Below, piece after piece: positions 3,874 to 15,430 of a DNA stretch of 36,872 nucleotides (positions are counted from its first letter, which is position 1; each line of letters begins with the position of its first letter). Position numbers and translations under genes: made by a program. This DNA comes from Candidatus Zhuqueibacterota bacterium (GTDB lineage Bacteria > Zhuqueibacterota > Zhuqueibacteria > Oceanimicrobiales > Oceanimicrobiaceae): assembly GCA_029262005.1 (NCBI GenBank), contig JAJDAG010000045.1, positions 1 to 36,872 on the forward strand. Direction: 5' to 3'. The notes beneath the pieces are model-generated. The model did no database searches, had not been told where the DNA came from, and worked only from the letters and a program-made list of their open reading frames with translations.

Positions 3874-6462
3874 TCACAATCTCCTCTGCACAATTGCCAC
3901 TTTCAAAACCTTCTGCAAGTTGAACTCGGGCGCCGTGATATGCGCTAAATAAATGCCCGAAGCAGCTCTCTTGCCATCCCTACGCTTCAAATCCCAGCGT
4001 AAAAATGGCGATACATCGTTTTTATTATATTCACGAATGAACTTTCCGGCAATGGAATAAATACGAATCCGAACCTGGTTTGGCAAGTGGGTAAACGTGA
4101 CAAACTGCTGCGCGGTCAGCGCCGACTCCTGGGAATTGTGCGCGAAATAGGGATTGGGAAAAACATTCACCCGGTCGAATTGTTCCGCCCATGGTGGTGT
4201 TATTTTTTCGATGAGCGCTTCCCCAGCGTAGAAAACAAACCTATCTTCAGGACCGTTGGGAATGCCTTTGCTGGAATCTGCCGGCGGTGAGTAAACCCGC
4301 ACCATTATGCCATCTACCACCGGAAAATTATAACCGCCGCTTTGAACGACCTGCCGGTCAAGAATTGTCTCCTGCGTCGTTAAATCTGTTAGCCGCCAGA
4401 AAATGCCAAGCGTTGGGTCAAGCGCAAAACTGACTTCATAATCGTGGCCGGTTAGCTGTTGCGGCAAAATGACTTCCCACAAAACAGTGCCACCGCTGGT
4501 ACCGTTGGTGTGATCTGCTTGCGCGAAAACAGGGTAGCTGAGATTTTCATCCGCGCCCGGAATGACTTCGACAAAATTAGCGCCCTCTGTGGCCCGGCTT
4601 TTTAACAGCGCGTTTGGGAATGGCAGCACCCAGTCATTTTCCCTTGTGGTATTTTCATTTTCGTGAATCCAACTGTGGTCGATGTTGTAAACCACAACTT
4701 CAAAATAGTAAGGCGCTCCTAGTCGAACTCGATTTTTCGTAAAAGCATCTTCGGTCACTCGTAAATGCAGGTAGGCCCCGTCCGGGCTCGAGTATGCCAG
4801 CGAGTCAAGGTTATTGGCCGCTCGAATCTTAAGCAACCGTCCCTGGCCCGTTTCTTCGTACAAATCGCCAATATTGTTCTTCAGATCAAATTGGGCAATC
4901 GTCGCAACATTGTTCATTCCATTCACTGAATCCGTTGGGACTGGACTATGAAATTGCCTGACCTGGAATCCTTCAAATTGTTGCTCTCCCCAAGTTCGCT
5001 TATCACGCTGTGCCACATAGTCTGCAGCATCCCAAAATAAATCGATGAACTGCCGGCCAAGTTCATCTTCGCCGCTTCGGCTGATAACTTGAGGTGCAAC
5101 AGGTCCTTTAAAATTGGCCTCATAAATCTTCTGGACAAATTTACTTATCTCTTTAGCTTTCGTGATGCTGTTGAGCGCTTCAGTGCCCTGGCCAACGATG
5201 AAAGCGACAACGATATCTTGTTTATCCCCGGGTTCCATTCGAAATGGCCCGGTGTTAAGCAACATGTACTGATTGTCGCCACTATATTGCAACCAACCTG
5301 TTCCGGACACAGGATCGCCTGAATACCAATAATGGGGATCGTCCGTAGAGTTGCCACCGGCCCCCCTTGAAAGCGGATCAAAAAAACTGCCGTCGTGCAT
5401 CAAACCCAATTGGTAAAATCTGGCAATTTGTTGCGTGCCAGGATACCGTAAACTTGCATCACCTGATAAGTATTGGCTAAATGAACTCAAACCAAGTATT
5501 TTGTGATCCCGAAGGGTTTTGACGCCCAGGTTGGGCCCCAAAACAAGTCTGGCAGTGTCACCCGGTGATGAAACCGCTGGTCCCTGCAAAAAATCCACAA
5601 GGAAGGCCGGTGGCGCGACCCCATAATATCTATCTGGACCGTCATTATACGTAAAACCTGCACCCAACTCAATATCACAACCAACCAAGTCATCAGCGTA
5701 GTCACCCAAATCCGGATTATGCTGAGAAGTAAAGTACATGTCTTCAATTGTGTCAGCGCTTTTATTAACAAGACGGTACCGAACAAATATGGTATTAGCC
5801 AACGCACCAGCCCTCGCGGCAAAAGCCCAGGCAGTTACCTGCACTTCCATACCTACGATTTTAGAACCCGCCCAGTGACGGTCATAGATGTCGGTGCCAT
5901 CATTCATCGCGAACCAAAGCATTCGGTCACCCAATAAATCAGGCATATCAACATTTGCATTGTAGAAACCATCGCCATCAAGATCAACATAGTCCGCGCC
6001 GGCAGCAACAGCATTTGCCCATTCAATATAAGCATCAGAACCCGCACCATCTTGAGATGTAACCGTAAAAATCTTATTGTTCGTATCTGCAGGATGCGAC
6101 CCATAGGTACCTGCAATATAATCCCGGATACCAGGGAAATTTGACACAGCAGATGCCCAGAGTTCACCATCGATGAACCCACTAACCCAGAAGGAACTCC
6201 AATACAAAAAATGTAAATCCGAGCCGGCTGGATATTCACCCCAGCGGCCATGTAAAGGACCTGGTAGGCTGTCACCGACATCGGCAATAATCCCGTTATT
6301 GCCAAAAGGAATACTGAGGTTGTTGACTTGCAAATATTTGAAATCACCCAGGATGTTTGGCGCCTGGGTTTTGCCAATTCCTTGCCCGTTGTTCTTTTGG
6401 GCAAAGGCCACGGTGACAACTGATAAAACAGTTATGCACAAAAATAACCCTATTTTCTTCAT
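3874..6462 (-). CDS. T9SS-exported surface protein, 862 residues
   Basis: The ATG at 6460-6462 is preferred over an upstream in-frame ATG at 6504 because it follows AGGAGG (6470-6475) at seven bases and opens directly with a signal peptide (MKKIGLFLCITVLSVVTVAFAQ). The protein is a paralog of the 1125-residue cargo at 16761: both share KYLQVNNLSIPFGNNG, GELWAS, SQDGAGSDAY or its near match, WANAVAAGAD, KIVGMEVQVTAWAFA, DTIEDMYF and FRMEPGD. A DLDGDG loop looks like a Ca-binding turn. The C-terminus is a T9SS type-A sorting domain: NVFPNPYFAHNS, a beta-sandwich with RIRIYSIAGKF and RWDLKRRDGKRAASGIYLAHI, ending KVLKVAIVQRRL. It should therefore cross the outer membrane by T9SS and be anchored or released at the surface. 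Its function is unknown. It lacks the insert of about 260 residues found near the C-terminus of the longer paralog. It is flanked by direct repeats of its own 3' end. Confidence 0.85.
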   Translation of the reverse strand: MKKIGLFLCITVLSVVTVAFAQKNNGQGIGKTQAPNILGDFKYLQVNNLSIPFGNNGIIADVGDSLPGPLHGRWGEYPAGSDLHFLYWSSFWVSGFIDGELWASAVSNFPGIRDYIAGTYGSHPADTNNKIFTVTSQDGAGSDAYIEWANAVAAGADYVDLDGDGFYNANVDMPDLLGDRMLWFAMNDGTDIYDRHWAGSKIVGMEVQVTAWAFAARAGALANTIFVRYRLVNKSADTIEDMYFTSQHNPDLGDYADDLVGCDIELGAGFTYNDGPDRYYGVAPPAFLVDFLQGPAVSSPGDTARLVLGPNLGVKTLRDHKILGLSSFSQYLSGDASLRYPGTQQIARFYQLGLMHDGSFFDPLSRGAGGNSTDDPHYWYSGDPVSGTGWLQYSGDNQYMLLNTGPFRMEPGDKQDIVVAFIVGQGTEALNSITKAKEISKFVQKIYEANFKGPVAPQVISRSGEDELGRQFIDLFWDAADYVAQRDKRTWGEQQFEGFQVRQFHSPVPTDSVNGMNNVATIAQFDLKNNIGDLYEETGQGRLLKIRAANNLDSLAYSSPDGAYLHLRVTEDAFTKNRVRLGAPYYFEVVVYNIDHSWIHENENTTRENDWVLPFPNALLKSRATEGANFVEVIPGADENLSYPVFAQADHTNGTSGGTVLWEVILPQQLTGHDYEVSFALDPTLGIFWRLTDLTTQETILDRQVVQSGGYNFPVVDGIMVRVYSPPADSSKGIPNGPEDRFVFYAGEALIEKITPPWAEQFDRVNVFPNPYFAHNSQESALTAQQFVTFTHLPNQVRIRIYSIAGKFIREYNKNDVSPFLRWDLKRRDGKRAASGIYLAHITAPEFNLQKVLKVAIVQRRL

Positions 6463-6481
6463 CGATAAGCCTCCTGTCCTG

Positions 6482-6658
6482 CTATTGCAATCTCCTCTGC
6501 ACAATTGCCACTTTCAAAATTTTCTGCAAGCCGAGCTCTGGCGCTGCGATATGCGCCAGATACAGTCCCGACCCGGCTCTTTTACCATTCCGGTCATTTA
6601 AGGCCCAACGTAAAAACGGTGACTCTTCGTTGTCCGGTCTTTTTATTTTCAAGATAGT
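6482..6658 (-). pseudogene. remnant of a T9SS cargo C-terminal sorting domain
   Basis: An uninterrupted but startless frame of 58 codons ends at TAG 6482-6484. It reads ...SPFLRWALNDRNGKRAGSG, LYLAHIAAPELGLQKILK, VAIVQRRLQ. This is the end of the sorting domain of the 862-residue cargo (SPFLRWDLKRRDGKRAASG...KVAIVQRRL). The last 45 bases are nearly identical to the 3' end of that gene at 3879-3925. It begins 16 bases after the stop of the lipoprotein at 6674 and ends 20 bases before the cargo start codon. It is either the scar of a tandem cargo copy lost by recombination, or a sorting domain cut off from the upstream lipoprotein gene. Confidence 0.8.
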
Positions 6659-6673
6659 CAATTACAACCAGTG

Positions 6674-7753
6674 TTAATGTGAGTTCAACGAATCAGCTTT
6701 TGTAGTATACGTGATTACGCCGTCCCTGCCGGTAGCCCAAACGACCCTTGACGATGGCGCGACCACATCTAAGTCCACTTCAAAGCCAGTCTCAACTAAT
6801 TTCCAGGTTACACCATAATCCGTTGAAGTCACCAAATCGCCTCCATCAGGAACATCCCATACGTACTGAACAGCCCACACATGGCCAGGATGCTGGCGTA
6901 TCTTCGTATATCGACTTGGGTAGATCGTGACCGGTGCGGGCAACGGGTCCCAGGTCTGTCCACGATTGGTGGTACGTGATTCATGCTCAACAAACGACAC
7001 AATTGCGGTCGCCGGTTCAAGCGCAACTAATGTCCAGGTGATATAATCTGGATCAGGATTCAGGGCGTCCCAGCTTGCACCGCCATCGGATGTCCAATAC
7101 AGATTGTTGTCGGACAACCTCAGTAAGCCACTATTAGCATCTGAAAAATTAACAGCATAATGGCTAGTGGATCCCTTCAAGGTGGTGTTGGCGTTAACCC
7201 AGGTCTGACCGCCATCATCCGTGTGGAGTATGGCAAACGGTGTATTTTCATCGGGAGGAGAATCGCCCATTGCCACACCATTCATCAGATCAAAAAATTC
7301 GATATAGTTGATGAAGTTGGTTATGCCTGGATTTTCGAATTGCACCGCCCAGGTGTCGCCGCCATCGCTGGATTTCAAAATAACTCCCTGCTCCGTTCCT
7401 ACCCAAAGATTGAGTGAATCGATAGCCTCGAAGGTGTAGAAATCACCGCGAGGTGGGCTTAATAAACGCCACGATGCTCCACCGTTTTCAGTCTTATAAA
7501 TCACATTTTCCGCCCAATCAGAGACCCAGGCCACGCGGGCATCCGCCGCTTCGATGATGCGTAGGTGTCGGTGGATGAGCGTATCTGGAAAGCTCTCGAT
7601 GACCGCCCAGCCAAACTCGTTGAAAGTCACCGGTACATAGAGTGGCGGTACACTGCCCTCGTCTGGTTGTTCACTCGAAGTAGATGAATTGAATGCGTTG
7701 CAGCCCAGCACAACCAAAAGGAACGCAAAGAATAACACTTTTGTAAGTTTCAT
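6674..7753 (-). CDS. Ycf48/BNR-repeat beta-propeller lipoprotein
   Basis: 359 residues. The N-terminus is a lipoprotein signal (FFAFLLVVLGC, lipid on Cys18) followed by a short Ser/Thr linker. The body carries repeated Asp-box motifs typical of sialidase/Ycf48 propellers: KTENGGASW, KSSDGGDTW, HTDDGGQTW, WTSDGGASW, TNRGQTW and STDYGVTW, spaced about 45-55 residues apart, consistent with a six- or seven-bladed propeller. The start is supported by GGAGAG eight bases before ATG. In FCB bacteria such propellers are commonly joined to T9SS sorting domains; here the frame stops just before a stray sorting-domain fragment (6482-6658), which may once have been its own C-terminus. Such propellers usually bind proteins or glycans; nothing here indicates an enzyme active site. 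Confidence 0.8.
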   Translation of the reverse strand: MKLTKVLFFAFLLVVLGCNAFNSSTSSEQPDEGSVPPLYVPVTFNEFGWAVIESFPDTLIHRHLRIIEAADARVAWVSDWAENVIYKTENGGASWRLLSPPRGDFYTFEAIDSLNLWVGTEQGVILKSSDGGDTWAVQFENPGITNFINYIEFFDLMNGVAMGDSPPDENTPFAILHTDDGGQTWVNANTTLKGSTSHYAVNFSDANSGLLRLSDNNLYWTSDGGASWDALNPDPDYITWTLVALEPATAIVSFVEHESRTTNRGQTWDPLPAPVTIYPSRYTKIRQHPGHVWAVQYVWDVPDGGDLVTSTDYGVTWKLVETGFEVDLDVVAPSSRVVWATGRDGVITYTTKADSLNSH

Positions 7754-7867
7754 AGAAAGCTCTCCTTTTTTAAACAGTTAGTTTGACAGAACTTACTACA
7801 CGAACTAAATTACACGTCAACTGCTCATCTTGAGAATCGTGTGAACCTTTTACAATATCACTTCTCA

Positions 7868-8128
7868 GCTCACACCTTAGCATAATCATTATCTTTCTGG
7901 TCACGAACTTCCTTCCTCCAGCTCGTACACGTACGGCTGCTGGCCACCAGTGCGCCGTTTTCGCTTTTGCCGTCCCAACTTACCCGATAGTGTCCCGCTA
8001 ACTGCCGGCTGTCAACTAACCTCCTGACCAGCAGGGAATTCCCCGCCTGGCCCATGCAATGGACCGGAAAGCGTATCGCCGACATCGGCAATAATCCCAT
8101 TATTGCCAAAAGGAATGCAGAGGTTACG
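7868..8128 (-). pseudogene. internally deleted, frameshifted T9SS cargo pseudogene
   Basis: Reading the minus strand from 8128, one frame gives CIPFGNNGIIADVGDTLSG then PLHG and EFPAG, the conserved N-terminal block of the cargo family. It continues directly into QEV, which belongs to the C-terminal sorting domain (GQEVRRLVDS). One frame over, the sorting domain proceeds as VRRLVDSRQLAGHYRVSWDG and KSENGALVAS. Another shift gives YVYELEEG, and another SFVTRKIMIMLR, the classic sorting-domain end. The middle of the gene (roughly 700 codons in intact relatives) is gone, and at least three frameshifts have accumulated. No product is expected. Confidence 0.8.
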
Positions 8129-8252
8129 CAGAGAGAAGAATAGCATAATTCGTTTTCAGTAATTTTGAGTCCCCTGGGTTGCATAGGCAACTCCAACTTA
8201 ACTTATAGAAAAAACTTTGCGTATCTTTCGCGTCTCTGTCTGCGTTTTTTTC
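8118..8252. repeat. pair of dispersed CGCAGAGA-type sequences in inverted orientation
   Basis: GCAGAGGTTACGCAGAGAGAA lies at 8118-8138. A longer inverted relative lies at 8211-8252; read on the minus strand it contains ACGCAGACAGAGACGCG and then AAAGATACGCAAAG. The first copy sits where the cargo pseudogene would encode its signal peptide and KYLQ block, so it may mark an insertion or recombination point. The same word family recurs in at least five other gaps. Confidence 0.5.
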
Positions 8253-8393
8253 TTCAGTTTATTCGGATTGAATTATGATAGCTTGTTGTGATTTACAGAA
8301 TGAAATTAATGAGCAGTACAATCACGGACTTAGAGTATCCTGTTAATCCCGTCTAAAGAATTTATCTCCCACGGAAAACAACATAGAGGCGAA

Positions 8394-8713
8394 CTATTTC
8401 ACCATTAACATTTGAATAGATTTGGAAATCCTTTACCCTGAAGCCGGACAAAATAAAGACTACTGGAAACAGCCGTGCCCAAATCGTCACGACCGTTCCA
8501 GAGAATACAATACCGTCCCGCCCTGATATCGTCATCTATTAATGTCTTAATCTCCTGTCCCATGAGATTGTTTATTTGCAGATATTTCACATCTTGCACA
8601 CTTCCTGTCTTTTGCAAGTCCAAAACACGTTTTTCTCCCTTAAACGGCAATCCAGTATTTATCAAAACAAGACTCAACCAAAGTAAGATGAATACGACTT
8701 TCCCGGCAAACAT
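8394..8713 (-). pseudogene. mini T9SS cargo: signal peptide fused directly to the sorting domain, frameshifted at the end
   Basis: An ATG at 8711-8713 opens a frame of 102 codons. It has a signal peptide (MFAGKVVFILLWLSLVLINT), then GSVQDVKYLQINNL, the N-terminal motif of the cargo family. It joins immediately to MGQEIKTLIDDDIRAGRY and ILWNGRDDLGTAVSSSLYF, which is the C-terminal sorting domain. The whole surface domain is missing. The frame ends at 8405 with a non-canonical tail, but shifting one base near 8430 restores KSIQMLMVK and a TAG stop at 8394-8396, the expected sorting-domain end. I therefore read it as a deletion derivative with a one-base loss. A functional 102-residue secreted peptide cannot be excluded. 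Confidence 0.7.
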
Positions 8714-8801
8714 TGGTTCTCTCTATAGTAAAAAATTTAATCTGGATAATTAACAAACTGCCATACCTACTTAGTCTGAAAAAACGACTAAAAAGTAACG
8801 C

Positions 8802-8835
8802 ATAAAAATAAAAAAGCGAACAAAAAGTGTTCGCT
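8802..8835 (-). terminator. Rho-independent terminator of the CHAT operon
   Basis: AGCGAACA and TGTTCGCT (8815-8822 and 8828-8835) form a perfect eight-pair stem with a five-base loop. On the minus strand it is followed by TTTTTTATTTTTA. It lies 170 bases after the stop of the TPR-CHAT gene and ends that transcription unit before the cargo graveyard. Confidence 0.8.
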
Positions 8836-9003
8836 GTGTTTCATGCCTTAACCATTGCAATTTACCCTGACTTTCCTTACAGGGAACCAGGCACGCCAAC
8901 GCCGCACCATTTCAATCTATCAAACTGCGAATTATTTTGGGATTTTGCCGATTGGGATTTTTTGATTTCGCCTTTCTTTAAACGATTTGAACCCGGTGAA
9001 GAT

Positions 9004-12000
9004 TTAGCGCCTAAGCGATCGTCGTGCAATTTTCACAAACCAATAAACTAGCAGCAGAAAAATCGGTAGCAGCAAAAAATAAACTGATGAAGGCGAAGAA
9101 TCAAAGTGAACCGCCGATGCCGAACCCATCAAAACATGACCTGCCCAAAAATAGGGGTGTTTCTTAAAAGTGCCGGCGTCTTTCAAATATTTAATCTTTG
9201 CCTGTTGCAAGGCCACATCTTTGCGCATACCCTTTTTCAAGCCCTGATAAAAAAAATTCATGATTTTGGCGGTTGCTGCGTCATCCACCTGCCAGAGGCT
9301 GGCCAGCATACTTTTTCCACCCGCATGAAAAAAGCCACGCGCCAGGCTGGCCAGGCCCTCACCCCGGCTCATTTTGCCAACCCCGGTTTCGCAGGCACTT
9401 AAAACAACCAGCTCTGCTTTAAGTGTCATGTTGTAGATTTCATAAGCATTTAAATAGCCATCGTTTTCTGAGTCAAAGCCCCGTGCAAGAATCAGCCTGG
9501 AGTACATTGGCATGCGATCCTCGACAACAGAGTGTGTTGCCACGTGGATGATCCCGGCTTCCGTACCTTCGCGCTTAAAATGGCTTTCAGTGGCATCTTC
9601 GCCAAAATAGGCCTGCCCTTTGACCAGGGTCGCCACCGTCCTTACTTCATTTTCCGCTTGCAGCAGGGGTGGGTAATTTTCATTTGCCCGAGCATTTTTA
9701 AAATCAATGCTGTCGGCAAGAGCCGGGTTGGCAAAGGCAAGCAACCTGGCTCCGGATTTCCCAGGCTCGCCCTCTCCGGCGATTGGCAGGTTGCTTGAAG
9801 GAAGATAGCTAAATGCATATTCCTCCATGAGAGTCCTGGCGCCCTTCTCGTCGGAAACCAGCATTTCAAAGGGTAGATAGGCCAATCGGTCATCCGGGAC
9901 AATTATCAAACTCGAAATGCCTTCCAGAAATTTTTCAACAGGTTTAAAAAGCTGAACATAAAGCCGAAAAGCCGATTGAACATCAAAAGCGCTCACCTGG
10001 TATTTTTCAGCCAAATTTCGTGAATCTGAAAAATATGGAACGGTTAAGTTGATTAGCTGGTGCAGGCTGTCGCGGGAAAGACCAGTTGTAAGCGCCACAA
10101 GCGAATCCGCAGTAATAACAAAAATCACAGTATTGTCTTCGCCGACAACATAGTCAAGTATCGCCTGACGCGGGCTTATCAGCCCTTCCTGAATCGCGCT
10201 CACAGGAACACTTCCCGGGTTAAAAAGCTGATCAAATTGTGGGTACTTTGCACAAATTTCGGACCAGAGTTCTTTTTTAGTTACTTCAAGTCGAGTAATT
10301 TCTGCGGTCAAATGAGTGCGCAGGCTGTCGTCGTTGACTCGCTCATGCCGGCGATAGCTCATCTTCAATTGAGTGTTCACTTTCTCCAAAGACACAACCA
10401 GGCTGTCCTGCGGCAATTGCACGTGGTGCAGTTGTATTTGCTCGATCAAAAGCTGTGCCTTAAGCTCCTGAACATATTCATAAGCCATTGGGAAATCACC
10501 CGCGTTCACCCAATATTCAACCAGTCGAAAATAAATTTCAAAAACCCCTTCAGACTGGTAAAATTCCCTGGTTAAAAATAAACCCGACAGCTTACTGCGC
10601 GTTAGCCGCACCATGTTCACAGCCTGGTTGAGATGAAAAACATACAGGGAATCATCCCCGGACTTTTGGTTTAGTTTCGCCAGACTTAAATGCGCCAGAC
10701 GACTCACAGCGGGATTCATTGCCAATTTGCCAAAGGACAAAGCCTGTACTGCGTAATCTTTTGCAGCCCGCAGTTGATTTCCAGCGAAGTAATAGTCACT
10801 CAGATTTAAAAAGGCGCTGCCTGTTTGTTTATTTGCGTTCGCCTTCTGCGCGAACTCCAGAGCCTGCTGCAGATGAATTATTGCCTCAGTACGATTATGC
10901 AAATTCACTAAGGCTGTACCGCTGTTGGTGTGATTAACAGCCAGCCCTTTCTGGTTGTCAAGCTTTATGTTAATTTTTATGGCTTGTGCATAGTAATCCA
11001 GCGCTGTTTGGTACTTTTCCTCCAATTCGTAAATCGCGCCGATATTGCCAAGGTTGGCAGCCTCGAAGCGCGGATTTTTTATCTCTCGGGCAATTTTTAA
11101 TGCACTGGTGTAAGAATCAAGCGCCTCCGCAAAATTGCCAAGTTCCTTGTGGACCAAGCCAATGTTTCCCAGGTGAATGCACTCGCCATATTTATAACTC
11201 ATCTCACGATCCAGAAGTAAGGCCTGGTGATATATTTTCAAAGCCTCAAAAAACCGGCCTGTTTCAAGATAAATAACACCGATGTTTCCCAGAGCAATTC
11301 CTTGCAGCGATTTGTTATCCGTGGCAGTGGCCAACCGGTGCATTTTTTGATAATTCTCCACAGCACGGCCAAATTGATTCATTTTGTAAAAGATGATGCC
11401 AAAGCGGTTCAACGCGATGGTTTGATATTTATTGTCATGCATATCTTTGAATATATCAAAGGCTGTGATATTAAATTTGAGCGCCTCGGCTAAGTCACCT
11501 CTGCTTCGAGCAATTCGACCCAACTCGGACAAGCAAAGCGCCTCACCCTTTTTGTCGCCAATTTGGCGGCTCAGGCGCAACCCCTGGTTGAAACAATCCT
11601 GCCCTCGGTCATAATTGGCCTGTTTAAAATTAGCAACCCCAATGCGGTGGAGACAACGTTCAAAAAGAAAGTCATCGCCGATTTTGGAATAAATTGCACT
11701 CGCCCGCGCTCTGAATTCAATGCTCCGTTCAAGTTGGTTTTGCTTATATTGTTTTTCCGCCACAAGCGACAGTGAATCCGCGCGTACTTTGTTGTTTCGA
11801 AATTCAACATTAAACGACTTATAAAGCCGGTTCAGTTTCAGAAAATAAGTATTTTGACCCTGGCAAAGCCAATCGACCACCGCATGCGCTTGTTGCGCTT
11901 CGGCAGTTCTGTTTTCAAGGTGGAGGCGATTGGCCCGATTTAAGATTTCCTGGACCGTATCGTAAATCAGGTAACTGTGATTACCCCGAAACCACTGCAG

Positions 12001-12147
12001 TGAATCCGCTTGACTTTGTTCGAACCAACTAAAAATTCGTTCCTGAAAATGAGGCTCGCTTTGACCCGAGGCCGGTGAGATAAGAAATAAAGTGTGAATA
12101 AGCAGTAAATATGGCAGGAAACTAATCTTGACATTTTGCGAAATCAA
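9004..12147 (-). CDS. secreted, membrane-anchored TPR-CHAT protease-like protein
   Basis: 1047 residues. It starts at TTG (12145-12147), six bases after the stop of the upstream membrane TPR gene, so translation is probably coupled. Residues 1-29 form a signal peptide ending ASGQ. Residues of about 130-510 hold some nine or ten TPR units (GNIGVIYLETGRFFEALKIY, GNIGLVHKELGNFAEALDSY, GNIGAIYELEEKYQTALDYY). Residues of about 650-1012 form a CHAT domain, a caspase-like cysteine peptidase fold. The expected dyad is present: His872 in IIHVATHS and Cys919 in VVLSACETG, followed by GEGLASLARGFFHAGGKSML and SLWQVDD. A C-terminal transmembrane helix (about 1020-1038) ends in a basic tail, KIARRSLRR. 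Topology therefore puts TPR and CHAT outside the cytoplasm with the tail inside. In other systems TPR-CHAT proteins cleave a partner on a signal. The neighbours suggest the partner is the membrane TPR protein or sigma-factor pathway upstream. The substrate is not known. Confidence 0.88.
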   Translation of the reverse strand: MISQNVKISFLPYLLLIHTLFLISPASGQSEPHFQERIFSWFEQSQADSLQWFRGNHSYLIYDTVQEILNRANRLHLENRTAEAQQAHAVVDWLCQGQNTYFLKLNRLYKSFNVEFRNNKVRADSLSLVAEKQYKQNQLERSIEFRARASAIYSKIGDDFLFERCLHRIGVANFKQANYDRGQDCFNQGLRLSRQIGDKKGEALCLSELGRIARSRGDLAEALKFNITAFDIFKDMHDNKYQTIALNRFGIIFYKMNQFGRAVENYQKMHRLATATDNKSLQGIALGNIGVIYLETGRFFEALKIYHQALLLDREMSYKYGECIHLGNIGLVHKELGNFAEALDSYTSALKIAREIKNPRFEAANLGNIGAIYELEEKYQTALDYYAQAIKINIKLDNQKGLAVNHTNSGTALVNLHNRTEAIIHLQQALEFAQKANANKQTGSAFLNLSDYYFAGNQLRAAKDYAVQALSFGKLAMNPAVSRLAHLSLAKLNQKSGDDSLYVFHLNQAVNMVRLTRSKLSGLFLTREFYQSEGVFEIYFRLVEYWVNAGDFPMAYEYVQELKAQLLIEQIQLHHVQLPQDSLVVSLEKVNTQLKMSYRRHERVNDDSLRTHLTAEITRLEVTKKELWSEICAKYPQFDQLFNPGSVPVSAIQEGLISPRQAILDYVVGEDNTVIFVITADSLVALTTGLSRDSLHQLINLTVPYFSDSRNLAEKYQVSAFDVQSAFRLYVQLFKPVEKFLEGISSLIIVPDDRLAYLPFEMLVSDEKGARTLMEEYAFSYLPSSNLPIAGEGEPGKSGARLLAFANPALADSIDFKNARANENYPPLLQAENEVRTVATLVKGQAYFGEDATESHFKREGTEAGIIHVATHSVVEDRMPMYSRLILARGFDSENDGYLNAYEIYNMTLKAELVVLSACETGVGKMSRGEGLASLARGFFHAGGKSMLASLWQVDDAATAKIMNFFYQGLKKGMRKDVALQQAKIKYLKDAGTFKKHPYFWAGHVLMGSASAVHFDSSPSSVYFLLLPIFLLLVYWFVKIARRSLRR

Positions 12148-12153
12148 TGTGTG

Positions 12154-13044
12154 TTAAATCTCCAATTCTATCAAGCAGTTCAGTATTTGTCGAGCAAAAC
12201 CGGACTTATCCGTCTGTGTTGCAATTACGGAATTCAAATACTTCTGTGCAAGGATAAAATCAGAATTATCGCTTCGTAAATCAAAACGAATTGTTCGGCC
12301 TAACCCAAGGTAAAACTGAATCTCATTTTTAAAAGGAGAGTCCGGTTGAAGTTCATCTAAAGACAGATCTAAATATTTGAGAGAACTGTCCAGTGCCGTT
12401 GACTCAAAATGAGTGAACAATCCAAAGGTGGTATTCCTGCTCTGTTTCAGGTAAGTCAAGCCCAAATAATAAGCACTGAACATCTTTTCCGTTTGTCCTC
12501 CTTCTGCGGAAAATTGCTGCCGGGCGAAATAAAACTGCTCGATCGCTTCATTTAATTTATCTTCGTTAAAAAGAATCTTTCCCTGGGTTATTGACGTTGT
12601 TGTGCCCCGAGCTATCGGCAGAGTAATATCGAGACTATCTGCAAAAACAGGCTCATACGGCAATTGGGTAAAATCAATGACAAGTTGCAGCGAAAAAAAC
12701 AACAGTACTGCGGTTGCAAAAACAATGGCTGGAAATCTATTTTCTGAAAAAGCCCACCTTCTTTGGGCCTGGCGAGCCTGAACAGCGGGTTGTCCGGCTG
12801 GTTGTTGCGGCAAAAATATCATATCAGCAAACCCGGCAGCATCGATTTCGCGATAAACCTCAAGGTAGTTAGAATATAAGAAATGAATATATTCGTTTAC
12901 CTCAGGCTTAGAGATGCGCCAGGATTCTACAAGCTCGAATTCCTTGTCGGACAGGCGTTCGCTTTTATCTTTGACACCGATACTTTCCTCGGCAAGATGT
13001 ATCGCGTAGCGAACAATTAAGTCATTGAATTGTTTGTCAGTCAC
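12154..13044 (-). CDS. single-pass membrane TPR protein, candidate anti-sigma factor
   Basis: 296 residues from a GTG start (13042-13044), with AAGGAG seven bases upstream. The N-terminal ~100 residues are helical and charged (NDLIVRYAIHLAEE, KEFELVESWRISKPEVNEYI), resembling in pattern the cytoplasmic helical domain of FecR-type anti-sigma factors. A transmembrane helix spans about 105-124 (PAIVFATAVLLFFSLQLVID), preceded by positive residues, so the N-terminus is inside. The C-terminal part, about 150-296, carries TPR-like helices (GKILFNEDKLNEAIEQFYFA, AYYLGLTYLKQS) and would be periplasmic. It lies between the ECF sigma gene and the CHAT gene in the same direction. Position and topology fit a sigma regulator that the CHAT protein could cut or bind. 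It has no zinc-finger anti-sigma motif; the anti-sigma role is an inference from context. Confidence 0.75.
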   Translation of the reverse strand: MTDKQFNDLIVRYAIHLAEESIGVKDKSERLSDKEFELVESWRISKPEVNEYIHFLYSNYLEVYREIDAAGFADMIFLPQQPAGQPAVQARQAQRRWAFSENRFPAIVFATAVLLFFSLQLVIDFTQLPYEPVFADSLDITLPIARGTTTSITQGKILFNEDKLNEAIEQFYFARQQFSAEGGQTEKMFSAYYLGLTYLKQSRNTTFGLFTHFESTALDSSLKYLDLSLDELQPDSPFKNEIQFYLGLGRTIRFDLRSDNSDFILAQKYLNSVIATQTDKSGFARQILNCLIELEI

Positions 13045-13107
13045 AGTAAAACTCCTTGGTTGGAGGGCAATGTCTCAGCGAGCACTCCTTGAAGCAGCAT
13101 GTAGAAA

Positions 13108-13124
13108 CAGAGAAAAACCAAAGC
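13108..13124. repeat. dispersed 17-base sequence CAGAGAAAAACCAAAGC
   Basis: Found in the gap between the sigma factor and the membrane TPR gene. The same 17 bases occur inverted at 23407-23423, and a one-base variant occurs at 13845-13860. Confidence 0.6.
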
Positions 13125-13218
13125 GCTGCATTCCAAAACTTTCTCTTCGTTGACCAATTGGCAAAATTAATGGTCACACTTAACTGTCGTGAAGTTATAG
13201 AAAATAGTAACGCTGCAA

Positions 13219-13812
13219 TTAGATTTTTTGATTGAATTTTTTGCTTAGTTTTTGCTTTAACCGTTGGAACCGCATTTTTATGGATGCTTCGGAAAGGAAT
13301 AGCTCCCGGGAAATTTCTTTATAATTTTTGCCATCTAACTTTAATTGAATTAAATGTTTGTTGACCGGGTCGGAAATAGTATTTAAGAGGTCCTGGAATA
13401 CAATTTCATGTAATATTTCGTCATCTCCTGGGGTAATACTGCCGTCACATAGATCGCTTTGGCCTTTAATACTAATGTGTGCCAGCTTGTATTTTTCACG
13501 AAAATAGTCGTTTATCACATAAGTGACGATTTGGGCAACATACCGCTTAATTTTAATCGGTTCTCTTATGTTCGAAAAATTTTTGATTAAACGAAGGTAG
13601 GTTTCCTGGCTGAGATCTTCGACGATACTGCTATTGCAGATTACTCTGGACAAAGTACATTTAATCTGATTTTGAAGTTGACGGCACACTTTTTCCATTG
13701 CCCGGCGCTCACCTGCTTGTGCCCGCCTGACCAGGTCAGCAAGCTCTAAACTATCATCCGGGTCCTCCTTTTTTTCATTGCCTGATTGCAAGGGCGTATT
13801 TTCGATCCTCAA
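13219..13812 (-). CDS. ECF-type RNA polymerase sigma factor
   Basis: 197 residues. Region 2 lies at about 28-92, with the region 2.2 helix VEDLSQETYLRLIKNF that contacts the core polymerase. Region 4 lies at about 140-193, with the helix-turn-helix YKEISRELFLSEASIKMRF and RLKQKL. Region 3 is absent, as in ECF factors. The start is uncertain: TTG at 13810-13812 opens the frame without a strong Shine-Dalgarno sequence, and the first ~18 residues look unstructured. It is followed after 174 bases by the candidate anti-sigma gene and then the TPR-CHAT gene, all on the same strand. This order suggests that the sigma factor is held at the membrane and autoregulates the cassette. The promoter it recognises is not identifiable from one site. 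Confidence 0.88.
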   Translation of the reverse strand: MRIENTPLQSGNEKKEDPDDSLELADLVRRAQAGERRAMEKVCRQLQNQIKCTLSRVICNSSIVEDLSQETYLRLIKNFSNIREPIKIKRYVAQIVTYVINDYFREKYKLAHISIKGQSDLCDGSITPGDDEILHEIVFQDLLNTISDPVNKHLIQLKLDGKNYKEISRELFLSEASIKMRFQRLKQKLSKKFNQKI

Positions 13813-14032: not shown

Positions 14033-15430
14033 TTAATTTGCATGTTCCTTGATAAAATCGCGCCAATTTTCATTCCGTACCCCACCGGTCAAAGTAGAGT
14101 GGACCAGTCTGAATGAATTAAACCCGGTAATGTCAACAAAGACAAACTCAACGCCGCTTTCCAGGTTGAAATAATTCCAGATTTCAAAAGGTTTACTGGC
14201 AGTTGTACTGCGATTCCAGTCAATTTCAGAAGGTTCCCCGTAGAGAATAAAAACTCTTCCGCGATCGGTGCGCCATCCCTCTCGACCCAGACCTTTAAAC
14301 CGCTCATTTGCATCCTCTACTCTCTGCAAATAACTAAGCCGGAAATCATTGACTTTACTCACAGGGTTGGTGTTATTCTTGTCCCAAAAAGTCTTGAGAA
14401 ATTTACGCTTGGCGTCAACTCCGGACAAACTATTGTAAAACTCTTTGCCCTCCTTCCGCAAAATATACTGAATATACTTAAACTCCAGGTCGAGAGCCGC
14501 CTCATCGATTTCTGCAAAAACGCCGAGAGAACCATCGTCTTGCAGCGCTCCACTACCAACGGCTGCCACTTGTGACGGGTTATAAATAAAGAATTTCCGC
14601 GAAATTGAATCCAATACCTTTCCAAGTGGATCAAGTATACTGAAATTGCAGAGGAAAACGCCACTGGGTAAGTCACCAACCTGCACCCTTCCTATCTCGA
14701 TACTCGTGTCGCCTCTGCGTTTCTTATTTCGTTTTCTCGAAAGGTGTGAGTACACCGTGTCGCCATTTACATTTGACAAATGGCAAAGTGTGCTGTATTG
14801 ATCCGAGGTGAGCCCGGATTGCAAATTGTACGCCTCAATGTAGTAGTACAACGTTGGCAGGCCGGCACCAAATGTTGCCCCGGGGTTCGGCAGCACTTCC
14901 AGTGTGTTCTTACAAAATACATTATTAGCATCCTTAGCCGCTCTTTTTATCGAAGTACTTACTTCCATGTCACTGAGTCGCACACCATCCCCGGTTTTCC
15001 ATTTACCGATGGGAAAATTAATGCGCGTACTATCCGACTTTCCGGGCGCACTCAGATCTTCGACAATGAGGGCAAGTTTATACTCCCCGGGTTGGGCTTG
15101 ATAGCTAAGGACATCGACGAAATTTGCCGAGTTGTTGAGCCTGGTCGTATCATCGATAACCAGTGGCACTTTCCATAAATCATCGACCCAGGCAGAATCG
15201 TTCCGGCTTATGCGCAATCTTACCATTGCCTGAGCAGTAAATGCAGAGTCCGATGGCTCAAATTTTAAATCAGACTGCCTGATGGCATAGTAGACTTCAA
15301 AATAGCTATCCTGTCCACTCAACTTATATTCAGCATAGTCGACGGCCAAACGGATTTCACCAGCCTGAACTGAATTAACAAAAATAAATGTGTAGAGCAG
15401 TAAACCCAATCTTAAAATAAAGCAACGCAT
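14033..15430 (-). CDS. GWxTD-domain secreted protein
   Basis: 465 residues with a signal peptide ending near VNSVQAG. The C-terminal quarter has the defining GWxTD signature, GWRTDRGRVFILYGEP at residues 385-400, followed by FEIWNYFNLESGVEFVFVD. This family is common in FCB and Acidobacteria genomes, usually as a secreted protein with an N-terminal beta-sandwich, and its biochemical role is not known. The N-terminal 300 residues are rich in beta strands, consistent with that. AAGGGA lies eight bases before the ATG and a TATAAT-like -10 lies just upstream. It is downstream of the PorV-like gene but separated by a terminator, so it is probably its own unit. The gene ends 220 bases before the sigma factor. 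Confidence 0.88.
   Translation of the reverse strand: MRCFILRLGLLLYTFIFVNSVQAGEIRLAVDYAEYKLSGQDSYFEVYYAIRQSDLKFEPSDSAFTAQAMVRLRISRNDSAWVDDLWKVPLVIDDTTRLNNSANFVDVLSYQAQPGEYKLALIVEDLSAPGKSDSTRINFPIGKWKTGDGVRLSDMEVSTSIKRAAKDANNVFCKNTLEVLPNPGATFGAGLPTLYYYIEAYNLQSGLTSDQYSTLCHLSNVNGDTVYSHLSRKRNKKRRGDTSIEIGRVQVGDLPSGVFLCNFSILDPLGKVLDSISRKFFIYNPSQVAAVGSGALQDDGSLGVFAEIDEAALDLEFKYIQYILRKEGKEFYNSLSGVDAKRKFLKTFWDKNNTNPVSKVNDFRLSYLQRVEDANERFKGLGREGWRTDRGRVFILYGEPSEIDWNRSTTASKPFEIWNYFNLESGVEFVFVDITGFNSFRLVHSTLTGGVRNENWRDFIKEHAN

Follow-up and report, generated by a model that had tools for sequence, protein, structure and literature searches.

A candidate envelope signalling module pairing an ECF sigma factor and its predicted anti-sigma factor with a TPR-CHAT protease predicted to be exported

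What does a TPR-CHAT protease with the marks of an exported protein do directly behind the genes for a sigma factor and a membrane protein? The question is raised by a 36,872 nucleotide (nt) stretch of DNA, referred to here as the window, i.e. contig JAJDAG010000045.1 (C145) of the 5.77 Mb draft genome of a Candidatus Zhuqueibacterota bacterium (assembly GCA_029262005.1), in which a gene for an extracytoplasmic function (ECF) sigma factor is followed by a gene for a predicted anti-sigma factor and a TPR-CHAT gene. Some bacterial phyla are rich in exported TPR-CHAT proteins, to which the literature that we found assigns no function; the partners known for TPR-CHAT proteases are intracellular CRISPR components. 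Our answer, which we regard as probable, is that the three genes form an envelope signalling module in which the exported CHAT protein is dedicated to making the site-1 cut in an ECF anti-sigma pathway. This reading builds on computed gene identities, conservation of the module, homology of the anti-sigma factor, an intact catalytic dyad, a conserved linker arginine and the co-segregation of CHAT and anti-sigma types.

The three genes follow one another on the minus strand in the order sigma factor, middle protein (anti-sigma factor) and TPR-CHAT, with gaps of 174 nt between the first two and 6 nt between the last two. A first-pass annotation of this DNA had described three same-strand genes ending at one terminator, and we recovered the open reading frames as well as a T-tailed hairpin on the minus strand (8835-8815). 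Both the sigma factor gene and the CHAT gene begin with a TTG codon in the present annotation, and these two starts are uncertain. The features are as follows (window positions; lengths in amino acids, aa):

13219-13812, minus strand: ECF-type sigma factor gene, 197 aa (Sigma70_r2, NCBIfam sigma70-ECF and PDB SigE/RpoE matches)
12154-13044, minus strand: gene for the predicted membrane-bound anti-sigma factor, zinc-less variant, 296 aa (orthologues in the same order, zf-HC2 relative in genome G029)
12835-13044, minus strand: predicted cytoplasmic domain of sigma-binding type, residues 1-70, three helices (hhalign, AlphaFold2 model)
12676-12732, minus strand: single transmembrane helix, residues 105-123 (hydropathy)
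12604-12609, minus strand: candidate cleavage step Arg146-Gly147 in the membrane-TPR linker (Arg146 invariant in alignment A3; motif in CHAT-linked anti-sigma factors)
12160-12597, minus strand: predicted periplasmic TPR domain, residues 150-295 (AlphaFold2, Foldseek)
9004-12147, minus strand: gene for the TPR-CHAT protease, predicted to be exported, 1047 aa (Pfam CHAT and TPR matches, N-terminal hydrophobic segment)
12061-12147, minus strand: predicted signal peptide, residues 1-29 (hydropathy, small-residue c-region SPASG)
9121-9972, minus strand: CHAT protease domain, residues 726-1009 (Pfam)
9532-9534, minus strand: catalytic His872 (codon position, CHAT alignment)
9391-9393, minus strand: catalytic Cys919 (codon position, CHAT alignment)
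9028-9084, minus strand: predicted C-terminal transmembrane anchor, residues 1022-1040, followed by the basic tail KIARRSLRR (hydropathy)
8815-8835, minus strand: intrinsic terminator, 8-bp stem and T-rich tail (hairpin about 170 nt past the CHAT stop codon)

The product of the first gene is an ECF sigma factor that comprises both region 2 and region 4, as it scores over the cut-off of the NCBIfam sigma70-ECF superfamily (4.8e-13). It also exceeds the Pfam cut-off for Sigma70_r2 (1.4e-6), stays below that for Sigma70_r4_2 and matches the ECF factors SigE/RpoE in a PDB search.

Is the middle protein its anti-sigma factor? On its own the protein returned zero Pfam or NCBIfam matches, and the identification comes from its relatives, which we sought across 82 KSB1 genomes. 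Orthologues were found in G005 (locus L037, 4e-38) and G026 (L038, 4e-20), and together with a further relative in G029 (L042) they stand in the same gene order, sigma factor, middle protein, CHAT; four more loci of the window type (L045, L048, L053 and L077) came from the survey of 93 CHAT genes. The middle protein of L042 (by Pfam, over cut-off) and those of the four added loci (by motif) open with a zf-HC2-type finger, followed by a second domain, the transmembrane helix and the TPRs, in that order. The N-terminus of the window protein and of its L037 and L038 counterparts corresponds to this second domain (hhalign 97.2%, E 4.6e-11). Because the zinc ligands of the zf-HC2 fold, which are kept in the five finger-bearing loci, are lost in these three proteins, we file the window protein as a zinc-less anti-sigma relative and not as a zf-HC2 protein. 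The first-pass annotation had named it as a candidate anti-sigma factor; the comparison of sequences strengthens this to a well-supported prediction of an anti-sigma factor of a known kind.

The one transmembrane helix of the middle protein is preceded by basic and followed by acidic residues, which, read from hydropathy alone, places the N-terminal 100 residues or so in the cytoplasm and the TPR domain in the periplasm, as had been proposed before. The AlphaFold2 model contains helices at residues 3-22, 33-45 and 47-69, with block-mean pLDDT (predicted local distance difference test) values of 58-84, then a low-confidence stretch, then a TPR fold past the transmembrane helix. Foldseek matched the TPR part to TPR folds (TMt about 0.8); it returned for the anti-sigma model TPR or other helical folds only, none with E under 0.001, and for the small N-terminal domain no match to a solved anti-sigma domain. 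No paralogue of the middle protein was found in the same genome and no close relative in GTDB contigs searched by peptide patterns, and a sigma-based scan of these contigs gave three KSB1 cassettes plus unrelated ECF sigma factors elsewhere.

The gene order itself is conserved well beyond the window. Our survey covered 93 CHAT genes from KSB1 loci as well as 43 Bacteroidota and 19 Acidobacteriota CHATs. Around the KSB1 CHAT genes, a sigma factor gene lies two genes upstream on the same strand in 12 of 78 slots and two genes downstream on the opposite strand in 12 of 76, and every other combination of position and strand holds 0-3 sigma factor genes (Fisher p 3e-13 for the peaks, kinship ignored). 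At the two peak offsets the gene between sigma factor and CHAT nearly always encodes an anti-sigma factor with one transmembrane helix, either in the order sigma factor, anti-sigma factor, CHAT (layout A) or with CHAT convergent, tail to tail with the anti-sigma and sigma factor genes (layout B). Layout A of the window type is retained in six KSB1 genera belonging to three families. The Bacteroidota CHATs include two cases of layout A (near-identical copies in two genomes) and four each of layout B and of a divergent layout C, and none of the three layouts was seen within two genes on either side of the 19 Acidobacteriota CHATs. Conservation of the module in KSB1, with a linkage far above chance, is therefore well supported, and the three-gene order on which the first-pass annotation had staked its model holds in relatives.

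Further arrangements of the same kinds of genes were seen along the way. In the Bacteroidota loci with layout C (L157, L167, L171 and L174), the sigma factor gene is divergent from a short operon for a secreted or lipoprotein-like protein and CHAT. The window's own genome contains a second CHAT gene beside a sigma/anti-sigma pair (L062, G000:C107) in convergent layout, whose anti-sigma factor differs from that of the window yet retains Arg-Gly in the linker.

Is the CHAT protein a competent protease in the right compartment? Its CHAT domain (PF12770, residues 726-1009) scores 223.9 bits against a cut-off of 24 (E 3.7e-66) and is accompanied by many TPRs. The intact His872/Cys919 dyad reported in the first pass was located again at codon level, and His and Cys are both present in 152 of 155 aligned CHAT proteins, including 33 of the 34 that are linked to a sigma factor gene. 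In a PDB sequence search the whole protein matched TPRs only, and the CHAT domain alone gave weak matches to CHAT structures. The N-terminus (MISQNVKISFLPYLLLIHTLFLISPASG) resembles a signal peptide, and an N-terminal hydrophobic segment is found in all 30 CHATs of layouts A and B; signal peptide and C-terminal anchor were both called from hydropathy only. The positive-inside rule would put the TPRs and the CHAT domain of this protein in the periplasm, and hydropathy and flanking charge fit a periplasmic protease domain, i.e. one in the same compartment as the TPRs of the middle protein, in line with the earlier proposal. Many KSB1 genomes also encode a distinct second conserved kind of CHAT, carried by one huge open frame of about 2600-2880 aa (e.g. 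G016:C44:12204-13010, G009:C112:25868-26686 and G077:C2:396648-397469).

If the CHAT protein cuts the anti-sigma factor, where would it do so? When the linked anti-sigma factors are aligned past the transmembrane helix, an Arg-small step emerges, i.e. an arginine with a small residue after it (in most cases Gly or Ser), usually 20-40 residues beyond the membrane and directly ahead of the folded domain. In the window, whose anti-sigma factor carries a periplasmic TPR domain (type T), the linker reads DITLPIA-RG-TTT, and Arg146 is invariant in alignment A3. A second type of anti-sigma factor (type I) has a different periplasmic domain that reads as a beta sandwich, with a linker such as PYLEGMLSDVS-RS-ESV; here the arginine (Arg135 in the numbering of alignment A14) is among 12 invariant columns, and the R-S step is kept in five members outside that alignment (L242, L243, L244, L246 and L237).

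We counted the motif in residues +10 to +48 past the transmembrane helix of 44 linked and 40 unlinked anti-sigma factors. R[GSN] occurs in 32 of the linked vs 17 of the unlinked proteins (p 0.008) and R[GSTAN] in 38 vs 21 (p 0.0008). Shuffling the linked linkers gave an expectation of 14.0 out of 44 for R[GSN], and 0 of 300 shuffles reached the 32 observed; the unlinked linkers too exceed their own shuffles (17 vs 10.0). The GEF-type anti-sigma factors of the same genomes (L248, L251, L257, L258 and L260), which are clearly unrelated, have no family-wide Arg-small step, and near some layout C loci Lys-Gly or Arg-Asn takes the place of Arg-Gly/Ser. Among the sigma-linked CHATs the dyad is broken in just one, with Thr for His (L107; G062:C106, CHAT at 5457-8873), and the anti-sigma factor beside it has no clear Arg-small step in the linker, a single case that proves nothing. 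Within clan CD of the cysteine proteases, arginine at P1 is familiar, e.g. from gingipain R, separase and the metacaspases. Judging by these alignments, Arg146-Gly147 is a candidate cleavage site.

On the CHAT-domain tree, the type of anti-sigma partner (T or I) needs one change, and 0 of 500 shuffles were as low, whereas gene layout on the larger CHAT tree needs five changes (layout A) or seven (layout B). The kind of CHAT thus tracks the periplasmic domain of the anti-sigma factor and not the gene order. Profiles of type-I anti-sigma factors and of the corresponding CHAT clade (clade I), each run over the 82 KSB1 genomes, hit the same 15 genomes, with two uncertain exceptions. The type-I periplasmic domain was matched in G015, G022, G027, G033, G042, G043, G044, G052, G053, G056, G062, G066, G074 and G080, and in G045 on a cut contig (L237); the exceptions, G010 and G011, lack a type-I anti-sigma factor, and their CHAT matches are partial and uncertain in tree position. 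With both counted against the association and kinship ignored, the Fisher p is 1e-14. Most training sequences of the profiles came from linked loci, and the cleaner test is provided by the untrained genomes G045, G052, G056, G062 and G066; low-scoring CHATs are only partly placed on the tree. The two genes lie on separate contigs in G052, G056, G062 and G066, and in G066 both contigs stop within 200 bases of the type-I anti-sigma and CHAT genes, which is what an assembly break between the two would produce. Among 99 Bacteroidota, a full-length type-I anti-sigma factor was found only in G137 and G148, and in both a clade-I CHAT adjoins it. The linker step shared by two anti-sigma types and this co-segregation go beyond the first-pass annotation, and they lend indirect support to its suggestion that CHAT acts on the anti-sigma factor.

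Either GGTCACAA or AGTCACAA precedes five of the eight sigma factor genes of the window type (L037, L042, L045, L048 and L077), 109-195 nt before the start, at a background frequency of 0.004 per 300 nt for GGTCACAA. These elements occur upstream of 2 of the 93 CHAT genes and of none of the other sigma factor genes sampled; they are absent upstream of the sigma factor genes of the window, L038 and L053, and no common -10 was seen. They are a candidate autoregulatory element. A shared bipartite ECF promoter before the sigma factor genes was also considered and rejected, as it scored no better than shuffles. As for the surroundings, the window encodes a BNR/Sortilin-repeat protein with a lipoprotein-like start (6674-7753) and a GWxTD-domain protein (14033-15430), both outside the conserved module in relatives.

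In the mechanism that we propose, the anti-sigma factor, with its single membrane span, would expose its TPR domain to the periplasm and keep the sigma factor at the membrane through its N-terminal domain, and the TPR-CHAT protein would be exported and anchored at the periplasmic face. A signal may reach the TPR superhelix of CHAT, TPRs being the supposed sensor in the first-pass annotation too; the His/Cys dyad would then cut the anti-sigma factor in the membrane-TPR linker, most likely after Arg146, and a general intramembrane site-2 protease of the M50 kind, for which the genome has three candidates, would complete the cut and free the sigma factor. The proteolytic role of CHAT on the anti-sigma factor is likely but unproven. 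We lean, by a little, towards a wider statement, i.e. that KSB1 and some Bacteroidota possess a large family of ECF pathways in which exported TPR-CHATs act as dedicated, Arg-directed site-1 proteases, and that these proteases have co-evolved with at least two anti-sigma domain types that share a linker cleavage motif.

The main rival takes CHAT to be an output or effector of the sigma factor, with the TPR domain of the anti-sigma factor sensing envelope damage and another protease removing the anti-sigma factor. Where the layout is convergent or divergent, CHAT is transcribed separately from the neighbouring sigma pair and must have its own promoter, so that it could be one of the targets which the sigma factor switches on; regulators often adjoin their targets, and vertical inheritance of a linked pair would likewise lead to co-segregation of types. 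An output role leaves unexplained, however, why an Arg-small step recurs ahead of two unrelated periplasmic domains and why the CHAT type follows the domain type of the anti-sigma factor and not the gene order, and the sole conserved element upstream of the sigma factor genes (GGTCACAA) hardly reaches the CHAT genes, with only the two cases among 93 upstream regions; we consider this rival unlikely, though it has a real chance of being right. Less likely again is a sensing complex that involves no cut in the anti-sigma factor, where the CHAT TPRs bind its periplasmic domain and alter its hold on the sigma factor, or where CHAT cuts another target whose product is the signal. TPR-type domains on both proteins, on the same side, would suit such a complex, and co-segregation fits contact between two binding proteins as well as contact between protease and substrate, but a dyad conserved in all but one of the 34 linked CHATs is needless for pure binding, and the linker keeps its arginine among residues that can otherwise vary freely. 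One could also imagine that the genes are neighbours by accident, or as in any operon, and are functionally unrelated, given that CHAT genes (seven in the window's genome, up to 26 in one KSB1 genome) and ECF sigma factor genes (about 19 candidates in the window's genome) are numerous; the sharp sigma peaks, strand-specific and precisely two genes away from CHAT in either layout, recur across families and rule out chance adjacency, and with the co-occurrence of CHAT and anti-sigma types across genomes they leave this explanation close to refuted.

Several points nevertheless weigh against a site-1 role for CHAT, besides the separate promoter already mentioned. Topology, sigma binding, cleavage, the site-2 step and the signal are what we infer from the data, and the structural model of the CHAT protein, built from four sequences, is poor (pLDDT 53 overall, mostly below 50 over the CHAT part). 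The linker motif was noticed before it was tested, five patterns were tried and the related sequences counted are not independent. Unlinked relatives of the linked families (L041, L043, L245, L246 and L247) also carry the arginine; kept where no CHAT adjoins, it may be structural or serve a CHAT in trans, and other Arg-specific periplasmic proteases may be the cutters. Finally, 121 of the 155 sampled CHAT genes lack a sigma pair in any of the recognised layouts, which argues that CHAT proteins have other roles as well. The proposed site-1 role makes one exact prediction, i.e. a cut after Arg146, and, if it is true, exported TPR-CHATs would gain a general job as the first cut in envelope-to-gene signalling.

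How does the module compare with known systems? A literature search, which did not extend to the main ECF classification paper, found no link between CHAT and anti-sigma factors outside CRISPR and no exported CHAT with an ECF anti-sigma factor. The first-pass annotation had drawn the parallel to Csx29-Csx30-RpoE. In the type III-E Craspase, the TPR-CHAT protease Csx29 acts with the inhibitor Csx30 and CASP-sigma, and the cut in Csx30 was proposed to relieve sigma inhibition (PMC10028731), so that the pairing of a TPR-CHAT protease with an ECF sigma factor and the inhibitor of that factor is common to both systems. In contrast, Csx29 is cytoplasmic and RNA-guided via Cas7-11, whereas the CHAT protein of the window is predicted to be exported and its inhibitor to be a transmembrane anti-sigma factor of the zf-HC2 kind. 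As an analogy the parallel stands; as a parent system it fails, with 23.4 bits against a cut-off of 300 for the Csx29 model NF041237, which places the protein outside the Csx29 family. Nor did we find a CRISPR part, in agreement with the earlier annotation: the window has no direct repeats of 20 or more bases within 150 bases, and PADLOC gave zero CRISPR matches for the three proteins. If our reading is right, Csx29-Csx30-sigma would be one case of a broader pairing of CHAT proteases with sigma inhibitors. In CalpL-CalpT-CalpS a dedicated protease (Lon) likewise cuts an anti-sigma factor and releases an ECF sigma factor, and in SAVED-CHAT of type III CRISPR systems a CHAT domain starts a proteolytic cascade (PMC11417357, PMC11229360); both differ in being triggered by cyclic oligoadenylate via a SAVED domain, which Pfam did not find in the CHAT protein of the window. 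By analogy, the closest system in topology and logic is DegS-RseA-sigmaE, where, as in PrsW-RsiW-sigmaW, an ECF sigma factor is bound to an anti-sigma factor with one transmembrane helix that is cut by an outer membrane-anchored site-1 protease and then by an M50 site-2 protease. Unlike the serine protease of the DegS type and unlike PrsW, the site-1 protease proposed here would be a caspase-like CHAT cysteine protease with a TPR superhelix of its own.

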